Source: Lachnoanaerobaculum gingivalis (GTDB lineage: Bacteria; Bacillota; Clostridia; Lachnospirales; Lachnospiraceae). Taken from it: DNA of 64,000 nucleotides. The translations under genes and the position numbers were made by a program. Shown piece after piece: positions 6,456 through 23,083 of the stretch; position 1 is the stretch's first letter; every line of letters begins with the position of its first letter. Where the stretch lies: the NCBI RefSeq assembly GCF_003862475.1, contig NZ_RRCO01000001.1, positions 186,001-250,000 on the forward strand, in the 5' to 3' direction. Under the pieces are notes generated by a model. The model was given only the letters and a program-made list of their open reading frames with translations, did not search any database and was not told the origin of the DNA.

Positions 6456-7655
6456 TTATTGCAACTTCTTTGCAATCTCATGTATAAATTCTTCACTGTT
6501 TAAAACTTGTATATTCTCTAAGCTTGAAATCGCACCGAGATCACCTGTCATCTTACCTGACTCTATGGTGTCAAGAGTTGCCTTTTCAAGTCTGTTTGCA
6601 AAATCCACCAAATCAGGAAGATTATCAAGCTCTCCCCTCTTTCTTAGCGCACCGCTCCAAGCAAAGATAGTAGCCACCGAATTTGATGATGTACTCTCAC
6701 CCTTCAAATATTTATAATAATGTCTTTGAACCGTACCATGTGCCGCCTCATACTCATAACATCCGTCAGGTGAAACAAGTACAGAGGTCATCATTGCAAG
6801 AGATCCGAATGCGGATGATAGCATATCGCTCATTACATCTCCGTCGTAGTTTTTACATGCCCAGATAAATCCGCCCTCGGATTTCATAACTCTGGCAACC
6901 GCATCATCTATAAGTGTGTAGAAGTATGTGATATTCGCCTCTTCAAACTTCTGCTTATATTCCTTTTCATATATCTCCTCAAAGATATCCTTAAAGGTAT
7001 GATCATACTGCTTTGATATGGTATCCTTTGTAGCAAACCAAAGATCCTCTTTTTGACTCAAAGCATATTCAAAACAGGCTCTTGCAAAGCTTTCAATAGA
7101 TGCATCCAGATTGTGAACTCCCTGTGCAATACCTGCTGCTTTAAATTCATGTACAAGGCTTCTCTTTTCATTTCCCTTGCTGTCTGTATATACCAGCTCC
7201 ACCTTGCCCGGTCCGTCTATAATCATCTCCGTATTTTTATATACATCACCATAGGCATGACGTGCAATGGTAATTGGCTTTTTCCATGTTCTGACATTAG
7301 GCTCAATACCCTTTACCAATATAGGCTTTCTAAACACTGTTCCATCTAAAATAGCTCTGATAGTACCGTTTGGAGATTTCCACATCTCCTTTAAGTCATA
7401 TTCCTTAACTCTGGCGGCATTCGGAGTGATGGTGGCACATTTTACAGCCACTCCAAGTCTTTTTGTAGCATTGGCCGACTCCACAGTTACTTTGTCATCC
7501 GTTTCATCTCTGTGCTTTAATCCCAAATCATAATATTCACTCTTCAAATCTACAAATGGAAGAATAAGCTCGTCCTTAATCATCTTCCACAGGATCCTTG
7601 TCATCTCGTCTCCATCCATCTCAACAAGTGGAGTAATCATCTGTATCTTTGCCAT
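6456..7655 (-). CDS. icd: NADP-dependent isocitrate dehydrogenase
   Basis: The enzyme oxidatively decarboxylates isocitrate to 2-oxoglutarate with NADP and supplies carbon for glutamate. The product is 399 residues, typical of the homodimeric eukaryote-like (type II) IDH family and unlike the E. coli type. Diagnostic stretches are [13 protein letters not shown] at the N terminus, [28 protein letters not shown] (substrate loop) and [10 protein letters not shown] (metal-binding Asp). NADP-binding [11 protein letters not shown] is present toward the C terminus. The ATG has GAGGT a few bases upstream. It lies just upstream of addB with a hairpin between, so co-transcription is uncertain. Confidence 0.95.
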
Positions 7656-7679
7656 ATTTACCTCTAAATCTGTAAAGTT

Positions 7680-8048
7680 TTATTTTTTAGGTACTATCTC
7701 TATCCAATATCCGTCCGGATCGCTTATAAAATATATTCCCATGCCCGGATTCTCATAGCATATTACGCCAAGCTTTTCATGTAATGCATGAGCCGATTCC
7801 ATATCATCTGTTTCAAGTGCAAGATGATACTCAAGCTCTCCCAAATTATATGGCTCTTTTCTGTCTCTTAAATAAGTAAGCTCAAGCTGAAATCCTGTTT
7901 CCTTATCTCCAAGATAAACCAAGGTAAATGACCCGTCAGCTGCTTCCTTTGTTCTCACAGGCTCAAGACCAAGTGCCTCCTTATAAAACTTTAAACTTCT
8001 CTCTAAATCAAGTACATTAAAATTAAAATGTGCAAATGAAAAATTCAT
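7680..8048 (-). CDS. VOC-family protein, lactoylglutathione lyase-like
   Basis: A 122-residue vicinal-oxygen-chelate protein. It shows the glyoxalase pattern: an N-terminal HFNFNVLDLERSLKFY with metal-ligand His, a central QLELTYL with Glu, HLALETDD with His, and the C-terminal DPDGYWIEIV with Glu. All four expected metal ligands are thus visible. In the family such proteins isomerise hemithioacetals such as that formed from methylglyoxal; Firmicutes without glutathione may use another thiol or substrate, so the substrate is left open. It lies 25 nt upstream of icd on the same strand and may share its transcript. Confidence 0.85.
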   Translation of the reverse strand: MNFSFAHFNFNVLDLERSLKFYKEALGLEPVRTKEAADGSFTLVYLGDKETGFQLELTYLRDRKEPYNLGELEYHLALETDDMESAHALHEKLGVICYENPGMGIYFISDPDGYWIEIVPKK

Positions 8049-8072
8049 CTTTTATCCCTTTCATTACAATAT

Positions 8073-8097
8073 ACACCCTGTATATTCTACAGGGTGT
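8073..8097. terminator. Inverted repeat between the VOC gene and serS
   Basis: Perfect 10-base arms (8073-8082 and 8088-8097) enclose a 5-base loop between the serS stop and the VOC-gene start. T-runs are weak on the minus strand (ATATTGT) and better on the plus strand (ATATTTTT). It is probably the serS terminator, though imperfect. Confidence 0.55.
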
Positions 8098-8104
8098 AAT
8101 ATTT

Positions 8105-9388
8105 TTAACCTTTTATAACTTCTTTTCCACCCATATAAGGTCTGAGTGCCACCGGTATTCTTATGCTTCCGTCTTCATTGAGATTGTTCTCAAGGAATGC
8201 GATAAGCATACGAGGTGGTGCAACAACTGTATTATTGAGTGTATGTGCAAAATATTTATTTCCGTTTTCGTCTTTTACTCTGATTCTAAGCCTTCTACTC
8301 TGTGCATCTCCAAGATTTGAGCAGCTTCCTACCTCAAAGTACTTCTTCTGTCTTGGTGACCATGCCTCTACGTCACATGATTTCACCTTAAGATCCGCAA
8401 GATCTCCTGAACAACACTCAAGTGTTCTTACAGGAACATCAAGAGATCTGAAAAGATCTACAGTATTCTGCCATAATTTATCATACCACATCTTTGACTC
8501 TTCAGGCTTGCAGACAACTATCATTTCCTGTTTCTCAAACTGGTGTATACGATAAACACCTCTCTCCTCAATACCATGTGCTCCCTTTTCTTTTCTGAAG
8601 CATGGTGAATAAGATGTAAGTGTATATGGCAACTTAGCCTCATCATTTAATGTATCAATAAACTTTCCGATCATAGAGTGCTCACTTGTACCGATAAGAT
8701 AAAGGTCTTCTCCCTCAATCTTGTACATCATTGCATCCATCTCGGCAAAGCTCATTACACCTGTAACCACTTCCGATCTGATCATGAAAGGAGGTACACA
8801 GTATGTAAATCCTCTCTCAATCATAAAATCTCTTGCATAAGATATTACAGCTGAATGAAGTCTGGCAATATCTCCCATAAGATAGTAGAATCCGTTTCCC
8901 GCAACCTTTCTTGCGCTGTCAAGATCTATACCGTTAAGTTTTTCCATGATATCTGTATGATAAGGTATTTCAAACTCAGGTACAAAAGGCTCACCGAATT
9001 TCTCAATTTCCACGTTCTCACTGTCATCCTTACCTATAGGTACACTCGGATCAATGATATTTGGAATGGTCATCATGATCTTCTTTACTTTTTCTTCAAG
9101 TTCAGCCTCAAGCGGCTCCAAACCTGCCAATGTCTCACCGATACTTGCTACAGATGCCTTTACCTGTTCTGCTTCTTCCTTTTTGCCCTGTGCCATCAAA
9201 GCACCGATCTCTTTTGAAATCTTGTTTCTCTTTGATCTGAGCTCATCAGCCTCGGCCTTTGTCTTTCTAAGCTTCTCGTCAAGTTCTATAACTTCATCAA
9301 CCATTGGAAGTTTAAAATCCTGAAATTTGTTTTTTATATTCTGTCTTACAATATCCGGATTTTCTCTTAAAAATTTAATATCAATCAT
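8105..9388 (-). CDS. serS: Serine--tRNA ligase
   Basis: SerRS charges tRNA-Ser with serine. The product is 427 residues. The N-terminal 100 residues form the long antiparallel coiled coil that recognises the tRNA-Ser variable arm (charged heptad-rich VIELDEKLRKTKAEADELRSK). The class II core follows, with LIGTSEHS, motif 2 CFRKEKGAHGIEERGVYRIHQF, and motif 3 NNTVVAPPRMLIAFLENN with its arginine. The ATG at 9388 has GGGGAAG upstream. No T-box is present; a short structured leader precedes it. A long-variable-arm tRNA-Ser(CGA) gene lies 3.7 kb away. Confidence 0.97.
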   Translation of the reverse strand: MIDIKFLRENPDIVRQNIKNKFQDFKLPMVDEVIELDEKLRKTKAEADELRSKRNKISKEIGALMAQGKKEEAEQVKASVASIGETLAGLEPLEAELEEKVKKIMMTIPNIIDPSVPIGKDDSENVEIEKFGEPFVPEFEIPYHTDIMEKLNGIDLDSARKVAGNGFYYLMGDIARLHSAVISYARDFMIERGFTYCVPPFMIRSEVVTGVMSFAEMDAMMYKIEGEDLYLIGTSEHSMIGKFIDTLNDEAKLPYTLTSYSPCFRKEKGAHGIEERGVYRIHQFEKQEMIVVCKPEESKMWYDKLWQNTVDLFRSLDVPVRTLECCSGDLADLKVKSCDVEAWSPRQKKYFEVGSCSNLGDAQSRRLRIRVKDENGNKYFAHTLNNTVVAPPRMLIAFLENNLNEDGSIRIPVALRPYMGGKEVIKG

Positions 9389-9691: not shown

Positions 9692-11344
9692 CCTAGATTA
9701 TTCATTGTTAACTCCATGAAAGTGGCTGAAAGCCACATAATTACTATATTTTAACAAAATATTGCTTTCACTTATTAAGTGAAGAAAAAAAGAGCGTCCA
9801 TTTGTGGTAAAATTAAGGTGCTTAAACTCAAAAAAAATACACAAAGGAGCCCTTTATGAGTATTGTAAACACCTTATCACTTGAAAGCAATAGAAAAATT
9901 AAAATTAATTTCGATGGAGGAGATTTATCCTCTGATGCAGGCTTACTTCTTATAAAAGAATTCGTAAGTAAACTTGGCATTGATAAACTTTTCAGTCAAT
10001 CATTTAAGACCAATGATTCTGCATTATTCCGTTATCACACTGATAAAGAAAATCTTCTTCAGATGATATATATGATCATTGCAGGTTATTTTGAAGATGA
10101 CGCTTCAGATGAACTTACAAATGATCCTGTGTTTAAAGCAGTGCTAAATAAAGACACTTTAGCATCACAACCAACCATTTCAAGATTTCATAATCGAATG
10201 GATGAGGATTCGCTGAATCAGTTCCTTTCAATAAATCAAATTCTTCGAAAGAAAGTTTATAGCATTCAGATGCCGGAAGCTATCATTTTAGATTTGGACT
10301 CAACACTCCTTAATGCCTATGGCAAACAGGAAGGTAGAGCATTTAACTTCCACTATCAAAGTAACGGTTACCATCCACTTGTTTGCTATGATGGAATCAC
10401 AGGAGATTTGATTAAAATTCAGCTTCGCGATGGGACTAAGTATTCAAGCACAGGAGTTGTGGAATTTCTTCAGCCTATACTTGATGAATATCTTGAAGAT
10501 TTTCCGGAAATTAAACTTCTCCTTCGTGGAGATAGTGGCTTTGCAACACCCGGTTTATATAAACAGTGTGAAGAAAACGGCACCGGCTATGTAATTCGTT
10601 TGAAAGAGAATGCTATACTTCGTGATAAAGCATCATATCTTGTAGATGAACTTGATGAAATCACAAAAAACAACAAAGTAGATTATGCTGTAGTTTATGG
10701 TGAATTCATGTATCAGGCAGGTCCTTGGCCTTATGAAAGACGTGTTGTCTGTAAAGTTGAAAAACCTGAAAACCAAATTACTTACATGTATACATTCATT
10801 GTTACAAACATGGAATCATCCCCTGAATATCTTATCAAGTTCTATTGCAAAAGAGGCTTGATGGAAAACTTCATAAAGGAAAGTAAAACAGGTTTTGACT
10901 TTGCTTCTGTCAGCAGTCATACAAGAATTGTAAATGCCAACAGGCTTCAAATACATGCACTTGCTTATAACATATTTAATTGGTTTAGACGATTGGCGTT
11001 ATCTGCAAATATGAGAAAACAACGCATTGATACTGTCCGTCTAAAACTGCTAAAGATTGCTGCAAAAGTAATTCGTTCAGCAAGGTATATAACATTCAAG
11101 CTGTGTAGCAGTTGCCCATATAAGGATGAGTTCTATGATACTCTATCAAATATCAGCAAGCTATGTATACAGCTTGAATAACAACTAATAATGAACCTTG
11201 ACAGCTTGATAACTACTTGTAAACTCTACCTAGGGGAAGTCTGCCCATTTTTAGGTGTATCAAGTCAGTTATAGCGTCATGGATTAGGTTTAAAGATTTA
11301 TAGCACGGTAATTAACTTAAATATCGTACCGTGAATAATGCAGG
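9692..11344 (+). mobile_element. Complete IS1380-family insertion sequence, 1653 bp
   Basis: The left end CCTAGATTATTCATTG starts at 9692. The right end, read on the other strand, is CCTGCATTATTCACGG and ends at 11344; 12 of 16 positions match. The element is bounded by a 5-bp direct repeat TATAG (9687-9691 and 11345-11349), a target duplication in the 4-5 bp range known for IS1380 elements. The termini begin with CCT as in this family. One intact transposase is inside. A small hairpin (GTGGC and GCCAC arms around TGAAA) lies at 9722-9736 in the left end. An extended -10 promoter TGGTAAAAT lies near 9805-9813. The intact ends, target duplication and ORF indicate a fairly recent insertion. Confidence 0.93.
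9856..11181 (+). CDS. IS1380-family transposase
   Basis: A 441-residue DDE transposase that cuts and rejoins the ends of its own element. It matches the IS1380 pattern: N-terminal FDGGDLSSDAGLLLIKEF, TISRFHNRM, then ILDLDST (first Asp near residue 146-148), LLRGDSGFATP (second Asp near 226) and NFIKESKTGFDF with the catalytic Glu near 340, followed by the conserved NRLQIHALAYNIFNWFRR. AAAGGAG precedes the ATG at 9856. The frame is uninterrupted, so the element may be active. It is transcribed opposite to the gene it interrupts. Confidence 0.95.
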   Translation: MSIVNTLSLESNRKIKINFDGGDLSSDAGLLLIKEFVSKLGIDKLFSQSFKTNDSALFRYHTDKENLLQMIYMIIAGYFEDDASDELTNDPVFKAVLNKDTLASQPTISRFHNRMDEDSLNQFLSINQILRKKVYSIQMPEAIILDLDSTLLNAYGKQEGRAFNFHYQSNGYHPLVCYDGITGDLIKIQLRDGTKYSSTGVVEFLQPILDEYLEDFPEIKLLLRGDSGFATPGLYKQCEENGTGYVIRLKENAILRDKASYLVDELDEITKNNKVDYAVVYGEFMYQAGPWPYERRVVCKVEKPENQITYMYTFIVTNMESSPEYLIKFYCKRGLMENFIKESKTGFDFASVSSHTRIVNANRLQIHALAYNIFNWFRRLALSANMRKQRIDTVRLKLLKIAAKVIRSARYITFKLCSSCPYKDEFYDTLSNISKLCIQLE

Positions 11345-13101: not shown

Positions 13102-13108
13102 AAAGCAT

Positions 13109-13198
13109 GGAGGTGTATCGAAGTGGTCATAACGAGCCTGACTCGAAATCAGGTTGTCACTTTTTTGTGGCACGAGAGTTCGAATCTCTTCGCCTCCG
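13109..13198 (+). tRNA. tRNA-Ser (anticodon CGA)
   Basis: The acceptor stem GGAGGTG pairs with CGCCTCC, with discriminator G at 13198. The anticodon arm is CTGA-CTCGAAA-TCAG, giving anticodon CGA, which reads UCG. A long variable arm and the T-loop TTCGAAT follow, as required for a class II tRNA-Ser. CCA is not encoded. It stands alone, with its own promoter and a downstream palindromic terminator. Confidence 0.97.
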
Positions 13199-13231
13199 TG
13201 AAATGAACTGTAGTAGTATCAGTTTTAATAA

Positions 13232-13273
13232 AGGAGATGTGAAAAAACTCAATCGAGTTTTTTCACATCTCCT
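13232..13273. terminator. Perfect palindromic terminator, copy 1 of a repeated element
   Basis: Nineteen-base arms (13232-13250 and 13255-13273) around the loop AATC carry internal runs of six A and six T. It works in both directions: for tRNA-Ser on plus, and for the secreted-protein genes ending at 13399 on minus. A near-identical palindrome with the same 28-base core occurs at 17661-17707. Confidence 0.8.
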
Positions 13274-13398
13274 AAAAATTAGGTTGTAATGTTACAAAAA
13301 CACTTGACCACAACAAAGTATATAGCACTGTTTTATATACAAGACCTTAATGAACACTTAAAACAATTTTAGTATTATAAAATATGATTATAATAAAT

Positions 13399-14124
13399 CT
13401 AATGTAACCAATAAAGACCGGTAGAAGCATTATTTGTCATAATCCCCTGTACCCTTTGTGCAAAAACCTCATCTTTAGTAAATAAATCATTCCATTTAAC
13501 TAAATTTCTACCTTTTTTATTGTTATGTAAATCCATTTTCTTATGTGCAACTTTACTATACCCATCTGACTCATTTCCAGAAGTATTCCTGTCTTCATGT
13601 GCAGTTGCATATGCCGCAGCCCAGCCTTTATTTATTCGTGCAGTCATTAAAGCATTCCAGTATGCATGTCTAAAAGCGTCTGTTTTATCCCCTAAACCAT
13701 TATATCCATATAACTCTGCCGTTTTTGCAGATGCATTGTCTGCCAATTCTTTAGTTTTTGCAGCACTTACAGGGTCAGTTGCTATTAATATTTTTTCAGA
13801 TAAGGTAAGTTCAGTCCATGACTCATACCACCCTGCTGGTTGTGCTGCATTACAATACATATCATCATATTCTTTTAAGATTTGCTCCGGCGATAAATCA
13901 GGATTGCTATCTTTTATTTCCTTTATTTTATCAACAAAGTCATCATAATCTGCTGGAAAGCCAAGTGCATCAATATCTTCAATAACTGAATATGAATCGA
14001 CAACTTGTGATGATTGGTACTCTGTACTTGTGTTTTCTTCATAAGCATAAATATTATTAGTTATTGGGATTGCAATCATAAAACAACTTAAAGCCGTTAC
14101 CATAATTTTGCTGATATTTTTCAT
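13399..14124 (-). CDS. Secreted DUF6973-type protein, cargo of agr cassette 1
   Basis: A 241-residue exported protein. Residues 1-28 form a signal peptide (MKNISKIMVTALSCFMIAIP). The C-terminal 130 residues match what I recall of DUF6973: LTLSEKILIATDPVSAAK, GYNGLGDKTDAFRHAYWNAL, AHEDRN and KMDLHNNKKGR. Conserved His, Asp and Glu residues suggest a metal or catalytic site, but no activity is established, so none is assigned. The start at 14124 was chosen for the signal peptide; an upstream in-frame start adds 20 charged residues and spoils it. It is the last gene of the copy-1 cassette and runs toward the palindromic terminator. Confidence 0.7.
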   Translation of the reverse strand: MKNISKIMVTALSCFMIAIPITNNIYAYEENTSTEYQSSQVVDSYSVIEDIDALGFPADYDDFVDKIKEIKDSNPDLSPEQILKEYDDMYCNAAQPAGWYESWTELTLSEKILIATDPVSAAKTKELADNASAKTAELYGYNGLGDKTDAFRHAYWNALMTARINKGWAAAYATAHEDRNTSGNESDGYSKVAHKKMDLHNNKKGRNLVKWNDLFTKDEVFAQRVQGIMTNNASTGLYWLH

Positions 14125-14202
14125 ATAATCATTATTCCTTTCAATATTAATTTTAAAATTATTATCTAACAAAATATTTATCATAGATAAAATTTGCTTT
14201 GT

Positions 14203-14625
14203 CTATAATCTACTTTCTCCATGATATACTTCTTCTGCATTATCACTATCGACATCAACTATTACTTTATCAACATTCTCCTTAAAATTAGGGATATTAA
14301 CAAATATTTCTGAAGATACTTCATCATCGCTGTAAACTGGAATAGCCTTTAAATTAATTTTTAATATACTGTTCTCATATGTTATCACATTTACTTTGAG
14401 CTTTGAATAAAAGATAATATCTCCATAAGTTCGATAATAAAAATTGTAATTATCACTATTATTTATAATATAATACCTATTATCAATAAGTTGCTTAATA
14501 TCTACTTCAAATTCATTTTGTTCATAATACAAAATAGAACCATTATTTTGTGTTTTTTCACAACCTGATAAATATAAAGCACTTAACAACAAAATTAAAA
14601 ATAAACTATTCTTATAGAATATCAT
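14203..14625 (-). CDS. Small lipoprotein, cargo of agr cassette 1
   Basis: A 140-residue lipoprotein precursor with a hydrophobic signal and lipobox LYLSGC, so it is expected to be anchored at the outer face of the membrane. The rest is acidic and beta-rich with no recognised domain. The start at 14625 is inferred from the signal peptide; the Shine-Dalgarno is poor (GTGGG about 8 nt upstream), perhaps because an IS end lies directly upstream at 14642 and replaced the original leader. It lies between the micro-ORF of copy 1 and the DUF6973 gene, all on minus. Function unknown. Confidence 0.6.
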   Translation of the reverse strand: MIFYKNSLFLILLLSALYLSGCEKTQNNGSILYYEQNEFEVDIKQLIDNRYYIINNSDNYNFYYRTYGDIIFYSKLKVNVITYENSILKINLKAIPVYSDDEVSSEIFVNIPNFKENVDKVIVDVDSDNAEEVYHGESRL

Positions 14626-14641
14626 AATTATACCCACTAAT

Positions 14642-14721
14642 CCTAAATTATTCATAGCATAGCTATGTCTGCGGCTGAAAGCCACATAATTACTGCATTT
14701 ACAAAACTTTCTTAATTTCAC
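14642..14721. repeat. Solo end of an IS1380-type element
   Basis: CCTAAATTATTCAT at 14642 followed by GGCTGAAAGCCACATAATTACT at 14673-14694 matches the left end of the complete IS1380 element at 9692-9743 in order and spacing. No transposase follows and the similarity fades after about 80 bases. It is a relic end or a small non-autonomous derivative, placed just upstream of the lipoprotein gene. Confidence 0.75.
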
Positions 14722-14810
14722 CTAAAAAATGAATAGAAAAATGACCTCTTTACTACTCCATAAAACTATTTTATGTTATTAAAACAAATCCATCTCTCTT
14801 TAAATTGCAG

Positions 14811-14882
14811 CTAAATGCTCAGATTTAAACACAACTTAAATATATCTCCATTTTTATACCTCATAGGATTCATACTTTTCAT
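14811..14882 (-). CDS. Micro-ORF downstream of agrB relic (23 aa)
   Basis: A 23-codon frame with the segment NPMRYKNGDIF, starting ATG at 14882 with AGG about 7 nt upstream. It begins right after the decayed agrB. The micro-ORF at 20059-20112 shares NPMRYKNGDI, and the codon differences within that stretch are synonymous third-position changes, which supports translation. No signal peptide or membrane segment. Function unknown; possible roles include a leader peptide, a chaperone-like peptide or an RNA-level control element. Confidence 0.5.
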   Translation of the reverse strand: MKSMNPMRYKNGDIFKLCLNLSI

Positions 14883-14889
14883 ACAAAAC

Positions 14890-15504
14890 CTATTTACAAA
14901 TAAATTTTGAGTCATATTTTACTTTCTTATTCTCATTGTAAGAATGATTCAATCTGTATTTGACAACTACAAACATTAGCATACTGAATATACATACATC
15001 CCTTTCTGCACTAAACCAATATAGCTTCCGGAATACTATAAAAATAGATTCTATAAATGCACTGATTAATAATATTAATAACAGTCTTCTTTTATATGTA
15101 CTAATTTCTACTTTATCCAGTGCCTTGTTTACATGTCCTATTAGTGCATACTTAATAAAAACCACAAATTAAACAAACAATAATATAGTCATTAACTTTA
15201 TACTATATGTCTGCGCAATTACTAGATATAATGCAACAATAGTACTAACTAATGAAATCAGATAGTAGAATACAGGACTATCCTAATGATATCTACCAGA
15301 TTTTTTTCTTACTAAAATAGTAAAATCTACAAAAACTGTACTTTCATTACTTTACCAAACAAAAGCCAATAAAAATTATTGTAATTATATTTAATAAAGC
15401 TCTTATCATTTGTGTTAATCCAAATACATAAATTTCCTTATCATCTTCCAGAAAAATATTATTTTCGATCACATATTGTATGATTTTTTTGATAGCCTTT
15501 CCAT
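14890..15504 (-). pseudogene. Decayed agrB (AgrD-processing protease), copy 1
   Basis: The reading starts at ATG 15504, three bases after the agrD1 stop, exactly as in the intact copy. A frameshift occurs at an A-run after about six codons. The frame then resumes with IFLEDDKEIYVFGL, matching LEDD/SEDDKEIYLFGL of the intact AgrB, and stops after FCLVK. Further on, GRYH-DSPVFYYLIS aligns with GGFHSDNPVICYLIS: the catalytic Cys is replaced by Tyr and a stop falls after the His. The last 91 codons (RRLLLILLISA) remain open. The enzyme is certainly non-functional. Confidence 0.9.
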
Positions 15505-15507
15505 AAC

Positions 15508-15651
15508 TTAAAATTTACGCAACTTTTTCACTTTGTCAGGTAACTCAGTCTGATGATAAATAAAAGCACACGCTGAATTTGCATTAAAAAGTGCAAATAC
15601 AAATGAGCATAGAGCAATGCCTTTACTTATTAGCAATAAATACTTTTTCAT
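15508..15651 (-). CDS. AgrD-like autoinducing peptide precursor, copy 1 (47 aa)
   Basis: Too short for routine ORF calling. A 47-residue frame starts at ATG 15651 behind a very strong AGGAGGAGG 8 nt upstream. It has the three-part AgrD layout: an amphipathic N-terminal leader (MKKYLLLISKG...), a core NSACAFIY, and a tail HQTELPDKVKKLRKF with the acidic-Leu-Pro motif AgrB needs. By analogy with S. aureus AgrD (Cys plus four residues, then an acidic ELP-like tail), the predicted peptide is a thiolactone ring CAFIY. Its own agrB is dead, so any processing must be in trans by the intact AgrB at 20149. High sequence conservation with copy 2 shows the frame is real. Confidence 0.85.
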   Translation of the reverse strand: MKKYLLLISKGIALCSFVFALFNANSACAFIYHQTELPDKVKKLRKF

Positions 15652-15699
15652 AGTTAAATCCTCCTCCTTTCAATATTCTTTTAATAAGTTACGCTTTGG

Positions 15700-15766
15700 A
15701 TTATACTAAATAATGATGTACTGTGCGAAAAATGTAATGGACTGTATGGTTATTTGTAATGAAATG
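15700..15766 (-). promoter_or_regulatory. LytTR/AgrA-type promoter of agrD copy 1
   Basis: On the minus strand two ATTACA half-sites (reverse complements at 15755-15760 and 15733-15738) are exactly 22 bp apart, followed after 27 bases by the -10 box TATAAT (15700-15705). The same array with identical spacings precedes agrD copy 2. Direct repeats about two helical turns apart are the known binding pattern of LytTR-domain regulators such as AgrA. No good -35 hexamer is seen, as expected for an activated promoter. The rest of the 434-base gap up to the IS1182 transposase holds no convincing gene. Confidence 0.75.
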
Positions 15767-16028
15767 TATTTTTTATAAAAATAATAATCCCCATACTATA
15801 AATATTTTTATTTACACAAAAAGCATTAATATACCGCAAATATCTCCATCCAAATAATGCATCAATGTGAATAAAATGTCTTTCTATGAAATAGTTGGGC
15901 TGTATGTTGATATAAATATTGAAGGGAAGTAAATTCATAAAAATTCAAAGTTTAAAAAGTTACTATGTACCATGATATTCATATATTTATTAATAGGAAA
16001 AAGGGGCTGTGAAATAAGTCCCTAAAAG

Positions 16029-16064
16029 AAATAGGACCATTCGTTCATGCGAAAGGTCCTATTT
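16029..16064. terminator. Hairpin in the IS1182 left end
   Basis: Arms AAATAGGACC (16029-16038) and GGTCCTATTT (16055-16064) are perfectly complementary, with T residues following. Such hairpins in IS ends commonly block read-through from outside promoters; here it lies just before the transposase promoter. Confidence 0.6.
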
Positions 16065-16085
16065 TTGTGGTAAAATTAACTTACG

Positions 16086-17559
16086 ATGAAAACTTTACAC
16101 AATAATTATTGTAATTCAAAACAAGGATATTTACCACTGTTTCTTTCAGATTGTTTGAATTTGCTGGATCCTGTTTTAATATTTGACAGATTTATGGGAG
16201 GAATAGATTTAAACAAGTATCTGACGGATATTCCGGAGTACACAACCGGACGACTCAGATATAATCCTGTCAACATGCTAAAAACAGTACTTTTCGGATT
16301 TATGACTAGCGGTTACTGCTCTCTGAGATAACTGGAAGACAACTGCAAAGTTAATATCAGGTTCATGTATCTCATGGATCACCGGACTCCATCATACAGA
16401 ACCTTTGGATATTTCATCAATGAAATACTTCAAGATAAGATCGAAAACATTTTTAACAACATCAATCATGCTATCTTTAACGAGGAGCATGTGGATCTGC
16501 AACATCTCTACATCGACGGCTCCAAGTTTGAAGCAAATGCAAACAAGTATACCTGGGTATGGAAGAAGGCTACCGAAAAGTTCCGTTACAAGCTTTACGA
16601 AAAAATCACTACGGAGATTGAAGAAATTAATGCAGAAATCGCATGGAGTGGGGTGCAGATTACAACAAACACAGAGTATGTACCGGATTATCTGAATGAA
16701 ATCGTTGAGCAGCTGGTACTTTTATGGGATCTGGATACAAGTACATTTGTTTACGGAAGCGGGAAGCGTAAATCCAAAGAACAGCGTCATTATGAACACT
16801 TGACTACTTTCTGTCAGAAACTTCAAGAATACATACAAAAAATTGAAATCTGTGGTCCTAACCGAAACAGTTATTCTAAAACAGATAACTCAGCTACCTT
16901 TATGCGTATCAAAACGGATTACATGGGCAATGATCAGCTTCTGCCGGCATATAATGTACAGATTGGTGTAGCAGATGAATATATTGCAGTTGTTGACGTG
17001 AACCAGTATCGTTCGGATATGGATTGTTTCGTTCCTTTGATGGAGCACTTCAAACAAACTTATGGATTCTACCCCAAATATCCTGTGGCAGATGCCGGAT
17101 ATGGCTCATACAACAATTATATTTTCTGTGAACAGAACAGAATTGAAAAGTATATGAAATTTCCAATGTTTAAAAAAGAAACTAAGGATAAGAAATATCA
17201 TGAAGATCCATTTCGTGCAGTTAACTTCAAAATTGATGAGCAAGGATTCATGAGATGTCCTAACGATAAAGCATTCCATTTTTTATGCAAAAAAATGTAA
17301 GAAGACAGATAAGAATCGAACCGTTAGGATCAATCAGGAACTAACTTCTATGCATCAGGAAGTAATCGAAAATCTAGAAAGTATCCATGGTGCGTTATTA
17401 CGAATGAACCGTTCGATACAAGCAGAAGGCACTTTCGGAATTATGAAAAATGACCGTTGGTACAAGAGAATTGTCCGAAGAGGTATTCATTCAGTCAAAC
17501 TGGAAGTTTTACTCGTGGCGATAGGCCATAATTTATATAAATATCAGAAAAAAAGATGA
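16086..17559 (+). pseudogene. IS1182-family transposase, broken
   Basis: The N-terminal DUF772-like region (FMGGIDLNKYL, RYNPVNMLKTVLFGFMTSGYCSLR) is interrupted by an in-frame TAA at 16329-16331. The frame reopens with YLMDHRTPSYRTFGYFI and the DDE core (LYIDGSKFEANANKY, then VADAGYGSYNNY) and runs to 17300. A second break by frameshift, probably with loss of the usual Cys-rich segment, follows. The C-terminal signature SIQAEGTFGIMKNDRWYKRIVRRG is in another frame. It is not functional. The family call rests on motif order typical of IS1182 transposases. Confidence 0.88.
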
Positions 17560-17660
17560 GAAACAGAACTGCCGCATAGATTCAAAAAGAATTTCTATGG
17601 GGTAGGGGAACTGCGCTTTTTTTGCGTATGATTTCAGTCATTTATACACATTAAATATAA

Positions 17661-17707
17661 AAAGGGAGATGCGAAAAAACTCAATCGAGTTTTTTCACAT
17701 CCCCTTT
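17661..17707. terminator. Palindromic terminator, copy 2 of a repeated element
   Basis: A near-perfect palindrome with loop AATC that shares the 28-base core of the palindrome at 13232-13273. It lies 50 bases downstream of the last cargo gene of agr cassette 2 (minus strand), the same position the first copy holds for cassette 1. Confidence 0.8.
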
Positions 17708-17757
17708 ATTTTGCTAATTAAACATTTTATACTCATACCTATATCTTAGCCTTGTGA

Positions 17758-18540
17758 TTATTTAAGTAAAATATTCTGAAAAGTATAATTATCCTTACCT
17801 CCAATTTTAACAGTTATAATATCCTTTTTCCCAAAATCTTTCCCGGGGAAAATAAGTGTCATACCTTCATCCGTAAACATTGTATTGGCAACCGTTTCTT
17901 TTCCTGTATCATCATCTACCAGAATAAAAGCTTCGTGAAAAGCATTCTTATCATTGGGGTTTGATAGATATAAAACTATAGAATTTGGGTAAATCTCACT
18001 TTTATCAATTTTTGCAGTATAAATATCATAGCTGATATCATAATTTAAAGTAATTGTTTTTGGAGAAACCTTGGTTGGTGAGTATAAATATTCATATCCG
18101 TCAAAAATTATGCTAATCGGAAAATTTTCCTCCAATGTATTCAATTCCATCACAAGATTTCCATCTTCAAAATTATATGCAACCAAATTTTGTACTGAAA
18201 TATCCAGCTGATGATCTTCTCCTTCAATTTTAATTATCTTCCCATTAGTAGTGTCCTTTTTTCTAAATGTAAGATAATGCATCGGTGTCATGTCTATGTC
18301 TGAAATAAGTTCAAGACAAACTCCATCCTTTATTATTCCTTGAGATAAATTATTATCCACGCTGACAGGAACATTATCGATATTAGCCTCTCCGGTACTT
18401 TCATTTTCTTTTTCAACTATAGACATCTCTACAGAACTCATACTGCTTGAATCCTGTTTAACATTTACACCGCAACCGACAAGTACAGCTGTTATTACAA
18501 CTAAGCTTACTATATACTTTTTTATAATTTTAATACGCAT
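17758..18540 (-). CDS. Lipoprotein, last cargo gene of agr cassette 2
   Basis: A 260-residue lipoprotein precursor with signal MRIKIIKKYIVSLVVITAVLVGC, in which LVGC is the lipobox. A Ser/Glu-rich linker of about 40 residues leads to a beta-rich domain of about 190 residues with no recognised family. The start overlaps the end of the preceding gene by 11 nt, so the two are translationally linked. Expected at the cell surface. Function unknown; context suggests agr-controlled expression, which is inference. Confidence 0.65.
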   Translation of the reverse strand: MRIKIIKKYIVSLVVITAVLVGCGVNVKQDSSSMSSVEMSIVEKENESTGEANIDNVPVSVDNNLSQGIIKDGVCLELISDIDMTPMHYLTFRKKDTTNGKIIKIEGEDHQLDISVQNLVAYNFEDGNLVMELNTLEENFPISIIFDGYEYLYSPTKVSPKTITLNYDISYDIYTAKIDKSEIYPNSIVLYLSNPNDKNAFHEAFILVDDDTGKETVANTMFTDEGMTLIFPGKDFGKKDIITVKIGGKDNYTFQNILLK

Positions 18541-19087
18541 CTACATAACCATTTGCCGCAAAGTTGGCTTTACGTCCTCCACTTATTTTAAAATAGAATT
18601 GATCATTTTCAGATATTTTTCTTTCTGAATGAAATTCTAAATCCTTATTTGTAGGTACATTGTAAGACTGTACATATGTTGAAGTGGAACTTGTTCCCTT
18701 TCTTTTATAAATAGTTATTGAATAGCTACTTACATTTGAGTAACTTGGTTTATATGCATATAAGCAAAATCTTCCATTATGGCCGGTAAAATAATAACTT
18801 GAGTACAGTGTATTACCATTTATTGCAGCAGACCAGGTGTATTGATTATCATACAAATACCATTCTTTAGTAGGTCTGTTGGATCCATATGGAACAATTT
18901 CGATATCTGATATATATCCCTCATCGACAAGATAAGGATTATTTTTGTCATCTATATTTATTTTTATAACATTTTCTTCATCGCTTATACTAACTTTCTC
19001 ATCTATGTTTTTAGCTGCATATGATGTCATTATTCCTACACATGCTAATGCTATTGTCAAAAATATACCAACTATTCTCTTTTTCAT
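18530..19087 (-). CDS. Secreted protein of unknown function, cargo of agr cassette 2
   Basis: A 185-residue exported protein. The start at 19087 is chosen because AGGAG lies about 8 nt upstream and it gives a clean signal peptide (MKKRIVGIFLTIALACVGIMTSYA with an AxA-like cleavage site); the upstream in-frame start adds 15 polar residues. The mature part is aromatic- and Tyr/Ser-rich (ITIYKRKGTSS, FKISGGRKANF) and looks like a small beta-sandwich. No family recognised. Overlaps the downstream lipoprotein gene. Confidence 0.65.
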   Translation of the reverse strand: MKKRIVGIFLTIALACVGIMTSYAAKNIDEKVSISDEENVIKINIDDKNNPYLVDEGYISDIEIVPYGSNRPTKEWYLYDNQYTWSAAINGNTLYSSYYFTGHNGRFCLYAYKPSYSNVSSYSITIYKRKGTSSTSTYVQSYNVPTNKDLEFHSERKISENDQFYFKISGGRKANFAANGYVDAY

Positions 19088-19238
19088 AAATAACTCCTTT
19101 CTTATAACCGAAATTTGTGGTTTTATGTGCACAAGCTCTATATACTACTATGAATAAGTTTTAATCGTATAATTTTATACTTCTTTTAATCTGTCATTTT
19201 TATATTTAAGATAATTGTTAAAAAAAGTATATTTTATT

Positions 19239-19952
19239 CTATGGAGATACAGATCCCCTTAGTACCACTCTAGATTTTATACGAATATCTTTACCCATTT
19301 TAGGTACTATTCTATATAAGTCACCTGTTCCTACTGCTTTAGCTCTTTTTTGGTTATCGCTAATTGAACAACTTAGTTTAGTTGCAGACCATTCATAATT
19401 ATCCGGTATATTTTCTTCTTCCAAATCTGCCGAGGCAGACGAAATATATCGTCTTTTATTTTCTATTTCCACATCATAATTGATAATTAGATTGATTTTA
19501 CCATTTCCTACATTCCTTCTTGCTACAATTTTACTTTTTGAAGAAGTAACCCCTAAATTAAACATATTTTTTTCGAGAATTGGGTAATCATCGTCTTCTT
19601 CGTTTAATGATCTATAAAATTCTTCTTCTGAAACTTCTGTAAACCCCAATACATATATTTCATCAGGTTCTTCTACTAAAGCACTTATATAATTATAAAA
19701 CTCTTCTGGGTTCATATTGGCACAAGCTTCATCTTCTGGTATAAATTTATCACGTTTCATGGAATCAGTTACCTCAACTCCCAAAGCTTCAATCTTTTCC
19801 CAGTATTCATCCTCTGTTAGAACCTCTCCATTAACTATAAAATCATTATTATTTGTATTAGTTATCGAAGCTTGTGTAGAACTCATGCAAAATAACAATG
19901 ACAGTGAAATTACACTACATATAGCAACACCCTTTAATATATTATTAAACAT
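19239..19952 (-). CDS. Secreted acidic protein, cargo of agr cassette 2
   Basis: A 237-residue exported protein. ATG 19952 has AAGGAG 6 nt upstream and opens a signal peptide (MFNNILKGVAICSVISLSLLFCMSSTQA). The mature N-terminal half is very acidic (NEEDDDYPILEK, DLEEENIPDNYEW) and the C terminus basic. It contains no recognised domain or catalytic motif. It follows agrB and the micro-ORF on the same strand with no terminator in between, so it is likely part of the agrD-agrB transcript. A 150-base gap before the next gene has no clear promoter. Confidence 0.6.
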   Translation of the reverse strand: MFNNILKGVAICSVISLSLLFCMSSTQASITNTNNNDFIVNGEVLTEDEYWEKIEALGVEVTDSMKRDKFIPEDEACANMNPEEFYNYISALVEEPDEIYVLGFTEVSEEEFYRSLNEEDDDYPILEKNMFNLGVTSSKSKIVARRNVGNGKINLIINYDVEIENKRRYISSASADLEEENIPDNYEWSATKLSCSISDNQKRAKAVGTGDLYRIVPKMGKDIRIKSRVVLRGSVSP

Positions 19953-20058
19953 ACATTTCTCCTTATACATTTTTTATTAAATATATACATCAAACACAGC
20001 ATATCTAAATTTCTTGACATAGGACCATGCATTGCATTAAGTACAACTAATCTTATAA

Positions 20059-20112
20059 CTATAATATATCTCCATTTTTGTATCTCATTGGATTTAATTT
20101 TTTCATGTTCAT
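20059..20112 (-). CDS. Micro-ORF downstream of agrB (17 aa)
   Basis: A 17-codon frame, MNMKKLNPMRYKNGDIL, with a perfect GGAGGA 5 nt before the ATG at 20112, beginning 36 nt after the agrB stop. The core NPMRYKNGDI recurs in the decayed cassette (14811-14882), and the three base differences within those ten codons are all synonymous. An overlapping 60-codon frame from 20116 is less likely: its ATG is only one base from the Shine-Dalgarno and it is not conserved in copy 1. Function unknown. Confidence 0.6.
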   Translation of the reverse strand: MNMKKLNPMRYKNGDIL

Positions 20113-20148
20113 ACATATCCTCCTTTACTTACATTTTAATAACTGCCA

Positions 20149-20715
20149 CTAATCAAATAATTTTATCTGTACTAATATAATCATAAATGCACTCATTCCA
20201 AATGCAAAGCTACCTGCATACAAAAGATATATTAAATTTGATATAGTAAATATAGACATCAAACACAATAATCCAAAAACAATTTTTAATAGTCTCCTTC
20301 TATATATCTTACTCTCAATATCTTCCAATATTTTATTTTTATGTCCCACCGGTGCATAAATTAAAAATATAACCGTTGACAAAATAACAAGAATCCCACT
20401 GACATATACATTCCATATCTGAAGCTTTATACTTATCAAAAGTAATATTATGGTTGAAGTAGAAATCAGATAACATATAACCGGGTTATCCGAATGAAAA
20501 CCGCCTGAGTAACTCCTTATGAACAAAGAAAAACACACAAATATAACACTAACTGCCAACATATTAAACCAAAGTCCTATAAGAATTAGTGTAACAGTAT
20601 TTAATAAAACTCTTAACATTAACACAAGTCCAAATAAATATATCTCTTTATCATCCTCTGATATAACTTTATTCCTGAGCATATAACCTACTAATTTTTC
20701 AGATATGTTTTCCAT
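20149..20715 (-). CDS. agrB: AgrB-family AgrD-processing membrane protease
   Basis: AgrB cleaves the C-terminal tail of AgrD, forms the thiolactone intermediate and helps export it. The product is 188 residues with about five to six membrane segments. The catalytic pair lies in GGFHSDNPVICYLIS: His74 and Cys81, with the spacing of S. aureus His77/Cys84. VGHKNKILEDIE and the basic YRRRLLK are typical. ATG 20715 comes 3 nt after the agrD stop with no Shine-Dalgarno, so translation is coupled to agrD. The order agrD-agrB is reversed relative to staphylococcal agrBDCA. This is the only intact AgrB in the window and may process both AgrD peptides. Confidence 0.92.
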   Translation of the reverse strand: MENISEKLVGYMLRNKVISEDDKEIYLFGLVLMLRVLLNTVTLILIGLWFNMLAVSVIFVCFSLFIRSYSGGFHSDNPVICYLISTSTIILLLISIKLQIWNVYVSGILVILSTVIFLIYAPVGHKNKILEDIESKIYRRRLLKIVFGLLCLMSIFTISNLIYLLYAGSFAFGMSAFMIILVQIKLFD

Positions 20716-20718
20716 ACG

Positions 20719-20865
20719 CTAGAACTTACGCAATTTTTTTACTTTGTCTGGCAGCTCTGGTTGATGATATATAAAGACACATGAAGAATTTGCATTAAAT
20801 GTAGCAAATAAAAAGGCCCCTATAGCTACTACTTTACTTAACATAAATAAATATTTTTTTAACAT
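20719..20865 (-). CDS. agrD: AgrD-like autoinducing peptide precursor, copy 2 (48 aa)
   Basis: A short gene missed by length cut-offs. It starts at ATG 20865 with GGAGG about 7 nt upstream and ends 3 nt before agrB. Layout: an amphipathic leader (MLKKYLFMLSKVV...), core NSSCVFIY, tail HQPELPDKVKKLRKF. Aligning with S. aureus AgrD (core CDFIM, tail DEVEVPKEL) predicts a five-membered thiolactone CVFIY with a short N-terminal extension. It differs from copy 1 in the ring at one position (V for A) and before it (SSC for SAC). It sits directly behind a LytTR-type promoter, so positive feedback through the adjacent AgrCA pair is likely. Confidence 0.9.
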   Translation of the reverse strand: MLKKYLFMLSKVVAIGAFLFATFNANSSCVFIYHQPELPDKVKKLRKF

Positions 20866-20913
20866 TCTTTATTCCTCCATTAAAAAATATAACTAAGTCT
20901 TATTTCTATAAAT

Positions 20914-20982
20914 ATTATATACAATAATTTCTTTATGTGCGAAAAATGTAATAAGTTGTATGGTTAATTGTAATAAAATGTC
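20914..20982 (-). promoter_or_regulatory. LytTR/AgrA-type promoter of agrDB
   Basis: On the minus strand two ATTACA half-sites (reverse complements at 20969-20974 and 20947-20952) lie 22 bp apart. They are joined by AACCATACA and followed 27 bases later by the -10 box TATAAT (20914-20919). Spacing and sequence match the copy-1 promoter at 15700-15766. No -35 hexamer is evident. The adjacent response regulator has a LytTR DNA-binding domain and is the obvious candidate to bind here. Confidence 0.78.
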
Positions 20983-21083: not shown

Positions 21084-22364
21084 CTATCGGCAATATAAAA
21101 CAGCTTCCACTATAAATACCCCTTTATCACAGGTGATTTGCAGAACTCCGTCATACTTGCTTAATACCTCTTTTACACTTTCCAGCCCTAAACCATGCCC
21201 TTTCTTATCTTTTTTTGTTGTTAAGAAATTTCCTCGAACTAAATTTACATTAAGATATGAATTTTCTATTCGCAATATAAGCCTACCTTTTGTATAATTT
21301 AGATTTAAATGCAACTTCGATTCTTCACCACGTTCATTAACTTTCTTTATAGCTCTTAAAGCATTGTCCAAAAGATTTCCAAGTATTACAGTAATATCCA
21401 TATCTGATATATCAAGTTTCTCCGGAATACATACGTCCACACTGATATCGGTATTTGCTACTCCCTTCAATTTGTAATTAATCATACTGTCAACGATTAT
21501 ATTACCCGAATTACATAGCTTTTCCTCAATGTCTATATTTGACAATATACAGTTAAAATAGTCCTTAAATGAATCAATATCGCCTTTTTCATACAATGAC
21601 TTGAGTGCAAACAAATGGTTTTTTATATCATGTCTGATTAAGGACATCTTTGCATTATCAGCTTGTATAATTCTTAATTGTTGCAGATATGATGAGTTCT
21701 GTTTTTGTAAAATAATTTTTTTGTTTTTTTCCTGTAACATTGTTAATGTATAATTATATAGTTGAAAACTTACCAAATTAATTATAATAAGCGCCGATAC
21801 AACAAATAATATTTGTTTATGTTCTGTAACATTGGCAATATTTAAAAACATAATAATGACAAACAGACTTGCAATAGGTATACTGATAATTCCGGTCCAA
21901 TATCCTATTGAAATATTTTTATATTTTATCAGATTATTTTTCTTACCGGATAATATCAGTGATACAATATATACTACAGCTCTAACACATATAATAAGAT
22001 ATATCGAATGTAATTCCTGTGCTTTAAACACAAATATCTTTCTATGATCGAACAGAGACATAAATATAATTTCAACAGCAAAAATAATCAAATACACATA
22101 TATTGTTGCCGTTATTCTGCTCTTAATTGTCCCATCATAATTAAATGTCAGTGCAAAAATGCTTATTATATGGAAAAACAGCATTAACAAAGGTATTGGT
22201 AGAAAAATAAAAACCAAAGAGCTTAACACAAAATATAAACTGTAAGATATGAACTCTATTTTTTTATTTATATCTTGTCTTTCAAAAAAAATACTTATAA
22301 GTTTAAATATTGAAATAACTCCCAGTGTGTTTGTAATCACAAATACACTATGCACCAATCTCAT
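21084..22364 (-). CDS. agrC: AgrC-type GHKL sensor histidine kinase
   Basis: The product, 426 residues, is the likely receptor for the exported cyclic peptide. The first 210 residues contain about six membrane helices with little else, as in AgrC. A coiled segment leads to the HisKA-like SLIRHDIKNHLFALKSL with phospho-acceptor His245, then the N box GNLLDNALRAIKK and G box KKGHGLGLESVKEVL of GHKL ATPases. The start overlaps the response-regulator stop by 4 nt (ATGA). Pairing with a LytTR regulator and closeness to agrDB support the role; specificity for CVFIY or CAFIY is not known. Confidence 0.92.
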   Translation of the reverse strand: MRLVHSVFVITNTLGVISIFKLISIFFERQDINKKIEFISYSLYFVLSSLVFIFLPIPLLMLFFHIISIFALTFNYDGTIKSRITATIYVYLIIFAVEIIFMSLFDHRKIFVFKAQELHSIYLIICVRAVVYIVSLILSGKKNNLIKYKNISIGYWTGIISIPIASLFVIIMFLNIANVTEHKQILFVVSALIIINLVSFQLYNYTLTMLQEKNKKIILQKQNSSYLQQLRIIQADNAKMSLIRHDIKNHLFALKSLYEKGDIDSFKDYFNCILSNIDIEEKLCNSGNIIVDSMINYKLKGVANTDISVDVCIPEKLDISDMDITVILGNLLDNALRAIKKVNERGEESKLHLNLNYTKGRLILRIENSYLNVNLVRGNFLTTKKDKKGHGLGLESVKEVLSKYDGVLQITCDKGVFIVEAVLYCR

Positions 22365-23083
22365 TTCAACTGTCCTTTCCTTTCAAATACCAGCTGTAGC
22401 TCTCTTATCTCTTTTCTCTTATTTCTGCTTATTGGGATTATACTTCCATCCGTCATTATCAATTCCTCGAATTTAAAACAAGTAATAAACTCATAATTTA
22501 CAAAATAACTCCTATTTGGATGAATGAAAAACTTTGGTAAAACTTCTTCCAAACTTTTAATATTGCCGTAAAAATTATAGTTATTCTTTGTACCGAACAA
22601 AAAAATCTCTCTTCCTTTACTTTCAAAATATAAAATGTCCTTATATGGGACTTTTACAGTTTTTCTGAAACTTTTAAATTCAAAATTCTTATTTTCCTTT
22701 TCAGATATTTTCATAGCTAATTGAATATCAGCAAAAACCTTTTTACTGTCTATAGGCTTTTTTAAAAAGTGAAGCGGTTGCACATCAAATAACTGTCTAT
22801 CATATATATCCTTCGATGATATATATATAATTTTTGTTATATAATCTTCCATTTGTTCACGAATAATATGTCCTACCTCTACCCCGTTTATCTCCCCAAG
22901 TTCAATATCTAAAAAGATCAAATCATATGGGCTCTCTTCTATATTTTCTAATAATGCTTCTCCGCTATAAAATGTATCTATGATTATATCTCCACATATT
23001 AAACTATCCTTCATGTCTATAATCATTGTCTTTAGCTCTCTACACACGTCCTCTACATCATCACAAATGGCAATTTTAAACAT
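22361..23083 (-). CDS. agrA: AgrA-type LytTR response regulator
   Basis: A 240-residue two-component regulator. Receiver domain: acidic pocket CDDVED, phospho-acceptor Asp59 in DLIFLDIEL, and Lys in FLKKPID. The C-terminal LytTR DNA-binding domain covers about residues 135-235, with VPYKDILYFESKGREI and FFIHPNRSYFVNYEFI. LytTR proteins bind direct repeats of the kind seen at 20938-20982 and 15724-15766. It is the first gene of the operon, with GAGG about 9 nt before the ATG; it is followed by agrC with a 4-nt overlap. The 260-base gap upstream holds its promoter and the terminator of the next gene. Confidence 0.93.
   Translation of the reverse strand: MFKIAICDDVEDVCRELKTMIIDMKDSLICGDIIIDTFYSGEALLENIEESPYDLIFLDIELGEINGVEVGHIIREQMEDYITKIIYISSKDIYDRQLFDVQPLHFLKKPIDSKKVFADIQLAMKISEKENKNFEFKSFRKTVKVPYKDILYFESKGREIFLFGTKNNYNFYGNIKSLEEVLPKFFIHPNRSYFVNYEFITCFKFEELIMTDGSIIPISRNKRKEIRELQLVFERKGQLK

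Follow-up and report, generated by a model that had tools for sequence, protein, structure and literature searches.

Organization of the two agr units

The window analysed here is a stretch of 64,000 nucleotides from Lachnoanaerobaculum gingivalis (contig NZ_RRCO01000001.1, positions 186,001 to 250,000), and all coordinates refer to it. Two units of the agr quorum-sensing type lie on its minus strand, with an insertion sequence (IS) of the IS1182 family between them. Unit 2 and its neighbours comprise the following features.

20974-17758, minus strand: unit 2, with operator, agrD2, agrB2, a micro-ORF (ORF, open reading frame) and three cargo genes, downstream of agrA-agrC
22361..23083, minus strand: agrA-type response regulator, LytTR (PF04397, 7e-17; PF00072, 1e-12)
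21084..22364, minus strand: agrC-type histidine kinase (HATPase_c_5, 8e-22; NF046015 AgrC, 2e-5, below cut-off)
20936..20974, minus strand: P2 operator, ATTACA repeats 22 bp apart, TATAAT downstream
20719..20865, minus strand: agrD2, predicted ring CVFIY (TIGR04223, 9e-14, 51.2 bits; cut-off 19)
20149..20715, minus strand: agrB2, intact (PF04647, 110 bits)
20059..20112, minus strand: micro-ORF MNMKKLNPMRYKNGDIL of unit 2, 3' of agrB2
19239..19970, minus strand: cargo c2a, hydrophobic N-terminus, no Pfam family above cut-off
18530..19087, minus strand: cargo c2b, 185 amino acids, hydrophobic N-terminus, no Pfam family above cut-off
17758..18540, minus strand: cargo c2c, lipoprotein-like (weak DUF5643 match, 0.0019, below cut-off; 90% amino-acid identity in G004)

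All agr components are found with unit 2, namely AgrB, the AgrD precursor, a GHKL-type AgrC kinase and a LytTR-type AgrA regulator, the last two matching the AgrC and AgrA equivalog models under cut-off. The catalytic residues of AgrB are a His and a Cys, and AgrB2 keeps the motif FHSDNPVIC in frame, as an AgrB membrane peptidase would. Similar to the agr system of the Staphylococcus aureus type (AgrBDCA), present in many Firmicutes, unit 2 combines the four components with paired direct repeats 5' of agrD. It differs in the order A-C-D-B, in the three predicted secreted proteins c2a, c2b and c2c after agrB, and in the second, orphan agrD found in unit 1. The agrC and agrA genes (21084-23083) adjoin unit 2 only. 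Unit 1 and the sequences around it are as follows.

15760-13399, minus strand: unit 1, with operator and agrD kept, agrB pseudogene, micro-ORF and two cargo genes
15722..15760, minus strand: P1 operator, ATTACA repeats 22 bp apart, heading unit 1
15508..15651, minus strand: agrD1, orphan, predicted ring CAFIY (TIGR04223, 5e-12, 45.7 bits; cut-off 19)
14890..15505, minus strand: agrB1 pseudogene, with early frameshift, two in-frame stops and catalytic Cys changed to Tyr
14811..14882, minus strand: micro-ORF MKSMNPMRYKNGDIFKLCLNLSI of unit 1
14642..14741, minus strand: remnant of an IS1380-type element, about 100 bp kept, 74% identical to 9692-9791, itself labelled IS1380
14203..14625, minus strand: cargo lipo1, 140-amino-acid lipoprotein-like protein
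13399..14184, minus strand: cargo DUF6973 protein (PF22322, 6e-24), hydrophobic N-terminal stretch
13108..13199, plus strand: tRNA-Ser(CGA), a flank present in G001-G005

A first-pass annotation had described the two units as copies of one duplicated cassette sharing promoter, agrD, agrB, micro-ORF and terminator. It made no mention of agrC and agrA adjoining one unit only, of transposase pieces separating the units, of the IS1380-type remnant inside unit 1 or of the tRNA-Ser gene. Both direct-repeat promoters it reported are present with the 22-bp spacing, both AgrD-like genes pass TIGR04223, and the cargo does differ between the units (c2a-c2c against the lipoprotein and the DUF6973 protein). 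Its agrB holds for unit 2, where the gene is intact, but fails for unit 1. The best alignment of AgrB2 against 15520-14860 spans two frames, the second of which has a TAG straight after the catalytic His, a later TAA and, in this second aligned part, Tyr in place of the catalytic Cys. A family search of the stretch likewise gave one TAG and one TAA, and no intact AgrB is encoded in unit 1. The gene is broken in all four genomes found with unit 1; in G002, G003 and G005 just its first part is left, adjoining an IS1380-like remnant. An IS1380-family element at 9692-11344 of the window is inserted close to the 3' terminus of a gene that encodes 537 amino acids here and 587 in G004.

P1 and P2 are nearly identical, and with up to three mismatches allowed the genome contains no other match to the operator. 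Two instances of ATTACA-N16-ATTACA are present in the window, whereas Markov shuffling predicts 0.04 per 64 kb. An alignment of six stretches, drawn from four genomes of the genus, shows conservation of the operator and its TATAAT box and, between the P1 copies, an almost invariant operator core. Among 61 genomes the operator pattern is present in four, a more divergent copy on contig 7 of G005 having escaped it.

Structure prediction without an alignment was poor for both c2b (mean predicted local distance difference test score, pLDDT, 54.9) and the DUF6973 protein (mean pLDDT 34.6). Comparison of the latter with solved structures yielded weak matches only, the best being a type VI secretion system effector of Bacteroides fragilis (E 0.12). 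No match was found for the five cargo proteins in a PADLOC comparison, nor for lactococcin among the window cargo proteins in Pfam.

An IS1182-family element with an alternative end

The segment that separates unit 2 from the tRNA gene contains three further features.

16003..17704 (left end at about 16003), plus strand: IS1182-family element, transposase in three ORFs, right end a palindrome
13233..17704, no strand: putative acquired TnSha1-like unit of 4.5 kb, made of the alternative end, unit 1 and the IS1182 element, in place of a terminator hairpin
13233..13272, no strand: 40-bp palindrome, alternative IS1182-type end (IRL'), also terminator-like

The transposase pieces match NF033551 with 8e-43, 1e-8 and 5e-4, none reaching the full-length cut-off. 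What had been taken for the same palindromic terminator behind both units is not a cassette part at either position: 17661-17707 is the right end of the IS1182-family element, and the palindrome at 13232-13273 lies outside the stretch shared with G003, which starts at 13315. The palindrome occurs at 18 sites in six of 61 genomes, and IS1182 right-end sequence borders 12 of the 16 sites inspected, on which ground the palindrome was rejected as a marker for recurrent cassettes in related genomes. The four sites without an IS1182 neighbour comprise 13233, a second site in this genome and single sites in G030 and G013. IS1182-type palindromes at L006, L037 and L045, with no adjoining IS sequence, may be remnants, or terminators that arose from IS ends.

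Comparison with the closest genomes, G004 and G002 (96 and 97%), revealed the same flank with an intact hairpin in place of 13233-17704. Homology to both ends at 13234/17702, and their hairpin folds at -20.8 kcal/mol in each. Reading the G004 and G002 hairpins by eye against the window junctions indicates insertion into the hairpin with loss of hairpin sequence and no target duplication. The segment begins with GGAGATGTGAAAAAACTC, which agrees with the other end read inwards, GGGGATGTGAAAAAACTC, at 17 of 18 positions counted by eye, so that an alternative inverted end lies beyond the passenger at 13233. The IS element's own left end (about 16003) reads GGGGCTGTGAAATAAGTC; in G003 that place, between agrC' and P1, is occupied by a hairpin.

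According to a report on IS1272, a member of the IS1182 family, this element targets hairpins, removing part of the stem-loop without duplication, and mobilises a neighbouring gene as TnSha1 through an alternative end (PMC4923244). The window resembles TnSha1 in that one IS1182-family element and a passenger, bounded by an alternative inverted end, stand in a terminator hairpin with sequence loss and no target duplication. However, the passenger described there is fabI, whereas in the window it is an agr fragment with secreted cargo, the transposase is broken and the host belongs to another genus.

Comparison of unit 1 with related genomes

At the DNA level unit 1 shares 97.8-98.2% identity with G003, 97.0-97.9% with contig 4 of G005 and 97.6-98.2% with G002, compared with 85%, 90% and 97%, respectively, for a control stretch at 7000-8800. 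Because only G003 and G005 exceed the control identity, transfer of unit 1 is supported for these two and the comparison is uninformative for G002. Unit 1 was apparently acquired from a related species, as judged from these identities, and its identity to unit 2 is only about 70% (15357-15767 against 20566-20981). In G003, the only relative with the full unit 1 cargo, the unit stands immediately after its own agrA'-agrC' (67% and 59% amino-acid identity to the window genes) at another locus; therefore a G003-like locus is a likely source. The G003 genes agrA', agrC' and agrD1 (L032 10664-13468) form a receptor pair with no maturation enzyme found: AgrB was not detected in that genome at the search sensitivity used (97% complete, some stretches masked), and is present in two of the six genomes of the genus.

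Next to unit 1 in G005 lie genes labelled by eye as an IS66-like set and as relaxase-like. G002 has lost the operator and nearly all of the DUF6973 gene, which is also truncated in G005. In G005 only about 56 bp separate the tRNA-Ser gene from the next conserved stretch, its agr locus being elsewhere. The tRNA-Ser(CGA) gene looks like an integration site; its region is split by an insertion of about 40 kb in G002 (L079 5212-5300, L083 3782-3887). Extra agr loci, some near mobile elements as here, appear in a report on Clostridium difficile agr2/agr3 and phage phiCDHM1 (PMC3901668). Those loci keep agrB, whereas unit 1 has a dead agrB beside its remaining agrD and operator.

Codon differences between G000 and G003 number 15 nonsynonymous and 4 synonymous in the DUF6973 gene, and 5 and 1 in the lipoprotein ORF; two of the latter nonsynonymous changes were omitted as they lie upstream of the true start, inside the IS remnant. 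The pooled cargo (18 nonsynonymous, 5 synonymous) fits neutrality, and an omega of 0.2 is rejected (p = 0.0017); by these codon counts there is no sign of strong purifying selection.

AgrD1 and AgrD2 differ by 12 synonymous and 13 nonsynonymous codon changes over about 47 codons, and by two residues from the Cys onward. From alignment with known AgrD proteins, the rings are predicted to be CVFIY in AgrD2 and CAFIY in AgrD1. The AgrD on contig 7 of G005 also has CAFIY. In S. aureus, the Asp-to-Ala variant D5A of autoinducing peptide I is an inhibitor, as stated in a figure legend of PMC12983307. By analogy, interference by the CAFIY variant is conceivable.

Proposed arrival and regulation of unit 1

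Based on the junctions and the comparison with relatives, we propose that a resident unit 2 was joined by a foreign unit 1 delivered as the passenger of an IS1182-family element, and that unit 1 is probably still driven by the resident AgrA; we consider this combined reading likely. Unit 2 would be the resident agr quorum-sensing operon. As in the known agr pathway, AgrB2 would mature AgrD2, the peptide would act on AgrC, and AgrA would act at P2, which would drive agrD2-agrB2, the micro-ORF and the three secreted proteins. Unit 1 would be the downstream half of a related, foreign agr locus that entered through a further matching end, at 13233, and took the place of the hairpin terminating unit 2. 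The resident AgrA would probably still drive P1, given its near identity to P2, and AgrB2 could mature AgrD1, which past the Cys lies so close to AgrD2. A second peptide variant, CAFIY, would in that case be secreted alongside CVFIY.

Several observations weigh against this proposal. The transposase is now in three pieces, and only one insertion of the whole 4.5-kb unit was seen, from which movement in one piece is deduced. Each end of the unit lies within a full palindrome, and homologous recombination between palindromes could look alike. The palindrome is absent from G003 and G005 at up to three mismatches, leaving the alternative end unseen in the donor type. No match to unit 1 DNA was found in plasmid and phage records. 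In addition, with 23 codon changes the selection test does not reject an omega of 0.5 (p = 0.21).

The most serious alternative is compatible with the proposed arrival and denies only the regulatory part: unit 1 would be pure debris, with agrD1 and the cargo unexpressed and without a role. The dead agrB1, the IS remnant, the near-neutral change of the cargo, the promoter lost in G002 and the DUF6973 gene truncated in G002 and G005 all agree with it. Against it, G000 and G003 both keep open reading frames for agrD1 and DUF6973, and the P1 copies differ little in the operator core. We regard debris as quite possible, somewhat short of an even chance. Replacement of an agr allele by homologous recombination, leaving two partial alleles adjacent with the IS1182 copies hitch-hiking or recombining at the palindromes, would account for the homologous heads, and palindromic IS ends at several genomic sites could indeed recombine; yet the insert is bounded at the hairpin base, as insertion of the IS1272 type predicts (PMC4923244), and the left end of the IS too replaces a hairpin relative to G003, making this route unlikely. 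A local tandem duplication of one cassette followed by cargo exchange, the first-pass view, is very improbable despite the common order of operator, agrD, agrB, micro-ORF and secreted genes and the roughly 70% identity of the heads, since unit 1 is far closer to other species (97-98%) than to unit 2, is missing, with the hairpin intact, from both relatives with the same flank, and in G003 stands behind its own agrA'-agrC' at another locus.

Modularity of agr heads and cargo

The idea of a modular, duplicating cassette with exchangeable cargo was partly right. Duplication is not supported, because unit 1 is an allele of foreign origin, decayed and next to IS1182, the terminator is an IS end and agrB is broken in every genome with unit 1. 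However, the conserved operator heads different genes within the genus: c2a-c2c in the window, the lipoprotein and DUF6973 genes in unit 1 and likewise in G003, only c2c in G004, where agrD and agrB are gone, and a radical-SAM-like protein with a Cys-rich peptide in G005. In three of these arrangements, namely both window units and, in a fused variant form, G004, head and cargo meet at the micro-ORF. The genus thus shows recurrent modularity rather than a self-duplicating cassette, and with sensing heads recurring before secreted-type cargo, the modularity idea survives in altered form.

At the G004 locus (L052 9512-10781), an internal deletion fuses agrA to agrC, and the micro-ORF is fused in frame with a lipoprotein gene. 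On contig 7 of G005 (L033 5675-13593), agrA-C-D-B, with agrC read as two overlapping ORFs, is followed by the radical-SAM-like protein, a CWGCGGCKGCSGCSGCKG peptide and ABC transporter genes. By these labels, assigned by eye, the locus looks like an agr-linked cluster for a ribosomally synthesised and post-translationally modified peptide.

At 14 agrD-like loci in other genera no common cargo was found. An AgrB-like ORF, judged by eye, follows agrD at six and precedes it at one; there are no agr genes around L094, and the remaining six, which all belong to G059, show no AgrB behind agrD. Signal-peptide-like or bacteriocin-like genes lie within 3 kb downstream at three loci: L093, with a 215-amino-acid signal-peptide-like protein; L090, with one of 676 amino acids at 1.9 kb; and L091 (G059 contig 26), where two double-glycine-type bacteriocin-like ORFs and a transporter-like gene, labelled by eye, occupy 2.1-5.0 kb past agrD. 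Secreted cargo as a general rule of agr loci was rejected as unsupported in these genera, where the pattern is not clean.

The NP[MQ]RYKNGD micro-ORF family

The pair of window micro-ORFs was the starting observation of the first-pass annotation and did not come from a pattern search. As a common agr part the micro-ORF stands in so far as both units have it, but the core also occurs outside agr. Between the two window copies the NPMRYKNGD core has three synonymous codon changes and no residue change. In the genus, 12 short frames carry the core, single-residue variants allowed, in five of the six genomes (none in G001); besides these, two cores are fused to a lipoprotein gene, two are interrupted and one is doubtful, the set being defined as 17 matches with up to two mismatches. 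The exact pattern gave 15 matches, three of them in this genome, in nine of 391 genomes of the class, with no control match; this search adds 12 loci in four other families. Looser patterns gave many chance matches: with one mismatch, 14 against 6 reversed-control matches in 299 genomes of the family, the eight outside the genus having the micro-ORF form in G220 only, and with three mismatches in the genus, 35 against 22. The core was found in two of 2.9 million viral contigs. The loci with NP[MQK]RYKNGD are 14811-14882 and 20059-20112 of the window, L113, L116, L119, L122, L126, L117, L120, L108 and L139-L152.

A following ORF is in reach at 16 of the 20 loci tested, and its N-terminus is strongly hydrophobic in 12 of the 16, compared with 36 of 137 and 16 of 55 background ORFs. 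A small Xre-like frame lies just upstream at 11 of 28 loci, and all five submitted frames matched HTH_3. Two followers (L142, L143) match lactococcin-972 bacteriocins (PF09683) above cut-off, so that the micro-ORF precedes two such genes, whereas the window cargo has no lactococcin match. Pfam searches with ten other followers and then three more gave none above its family cut-off.

An RNA element in place of a peptide was rejected: 13 loci had no Rfam match, and no excess folding was found in 26 of 27 loci, one with N being skipped (mean z -0.13; three loci with z < -2). Third positions of codons 1, 2 and 4 show little variation, which may reflect some constraint at the DNA level. In the literature searched, no mention of NPMRYKNGD, RYKNGD or DUF6973 was found, a search that sequences given only in figures would escape. 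The micro-ORF is not an agr part; NP[MQ]RYKNGD defines a leader-peptide family that is apparently undescribed. Tentatively, we suggest that the micro-ORFs may be class-wide translated leader peptides controlling secreted antagonism proteins under exchangeable heads, either a small Cys-tailed Xre protein or agr. The IS1182-type unit would then have brought a second agr head, its orphan AgrD still emitting, by way of the resident AgrB, a variant and possibly interfering peptide; this wider picture is plausible, with the balance leaning somewhat against it.

If the proposed arrival is correct, a single IS1182-type element would have moved a quorum-sensing allele with a different predicted pheromone from one species to another, and the transferred allele would have landed under the control of the resident system. 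The comparison also tells the true shared module (operator, agrD and micro-ORF) apart from an IS end that mimics a cassette terminator. In addition, a leader micropeptide conserved over several families of the class would be a searchable tag for unannotated operons of secreted proteins, some of them bacteriocins.

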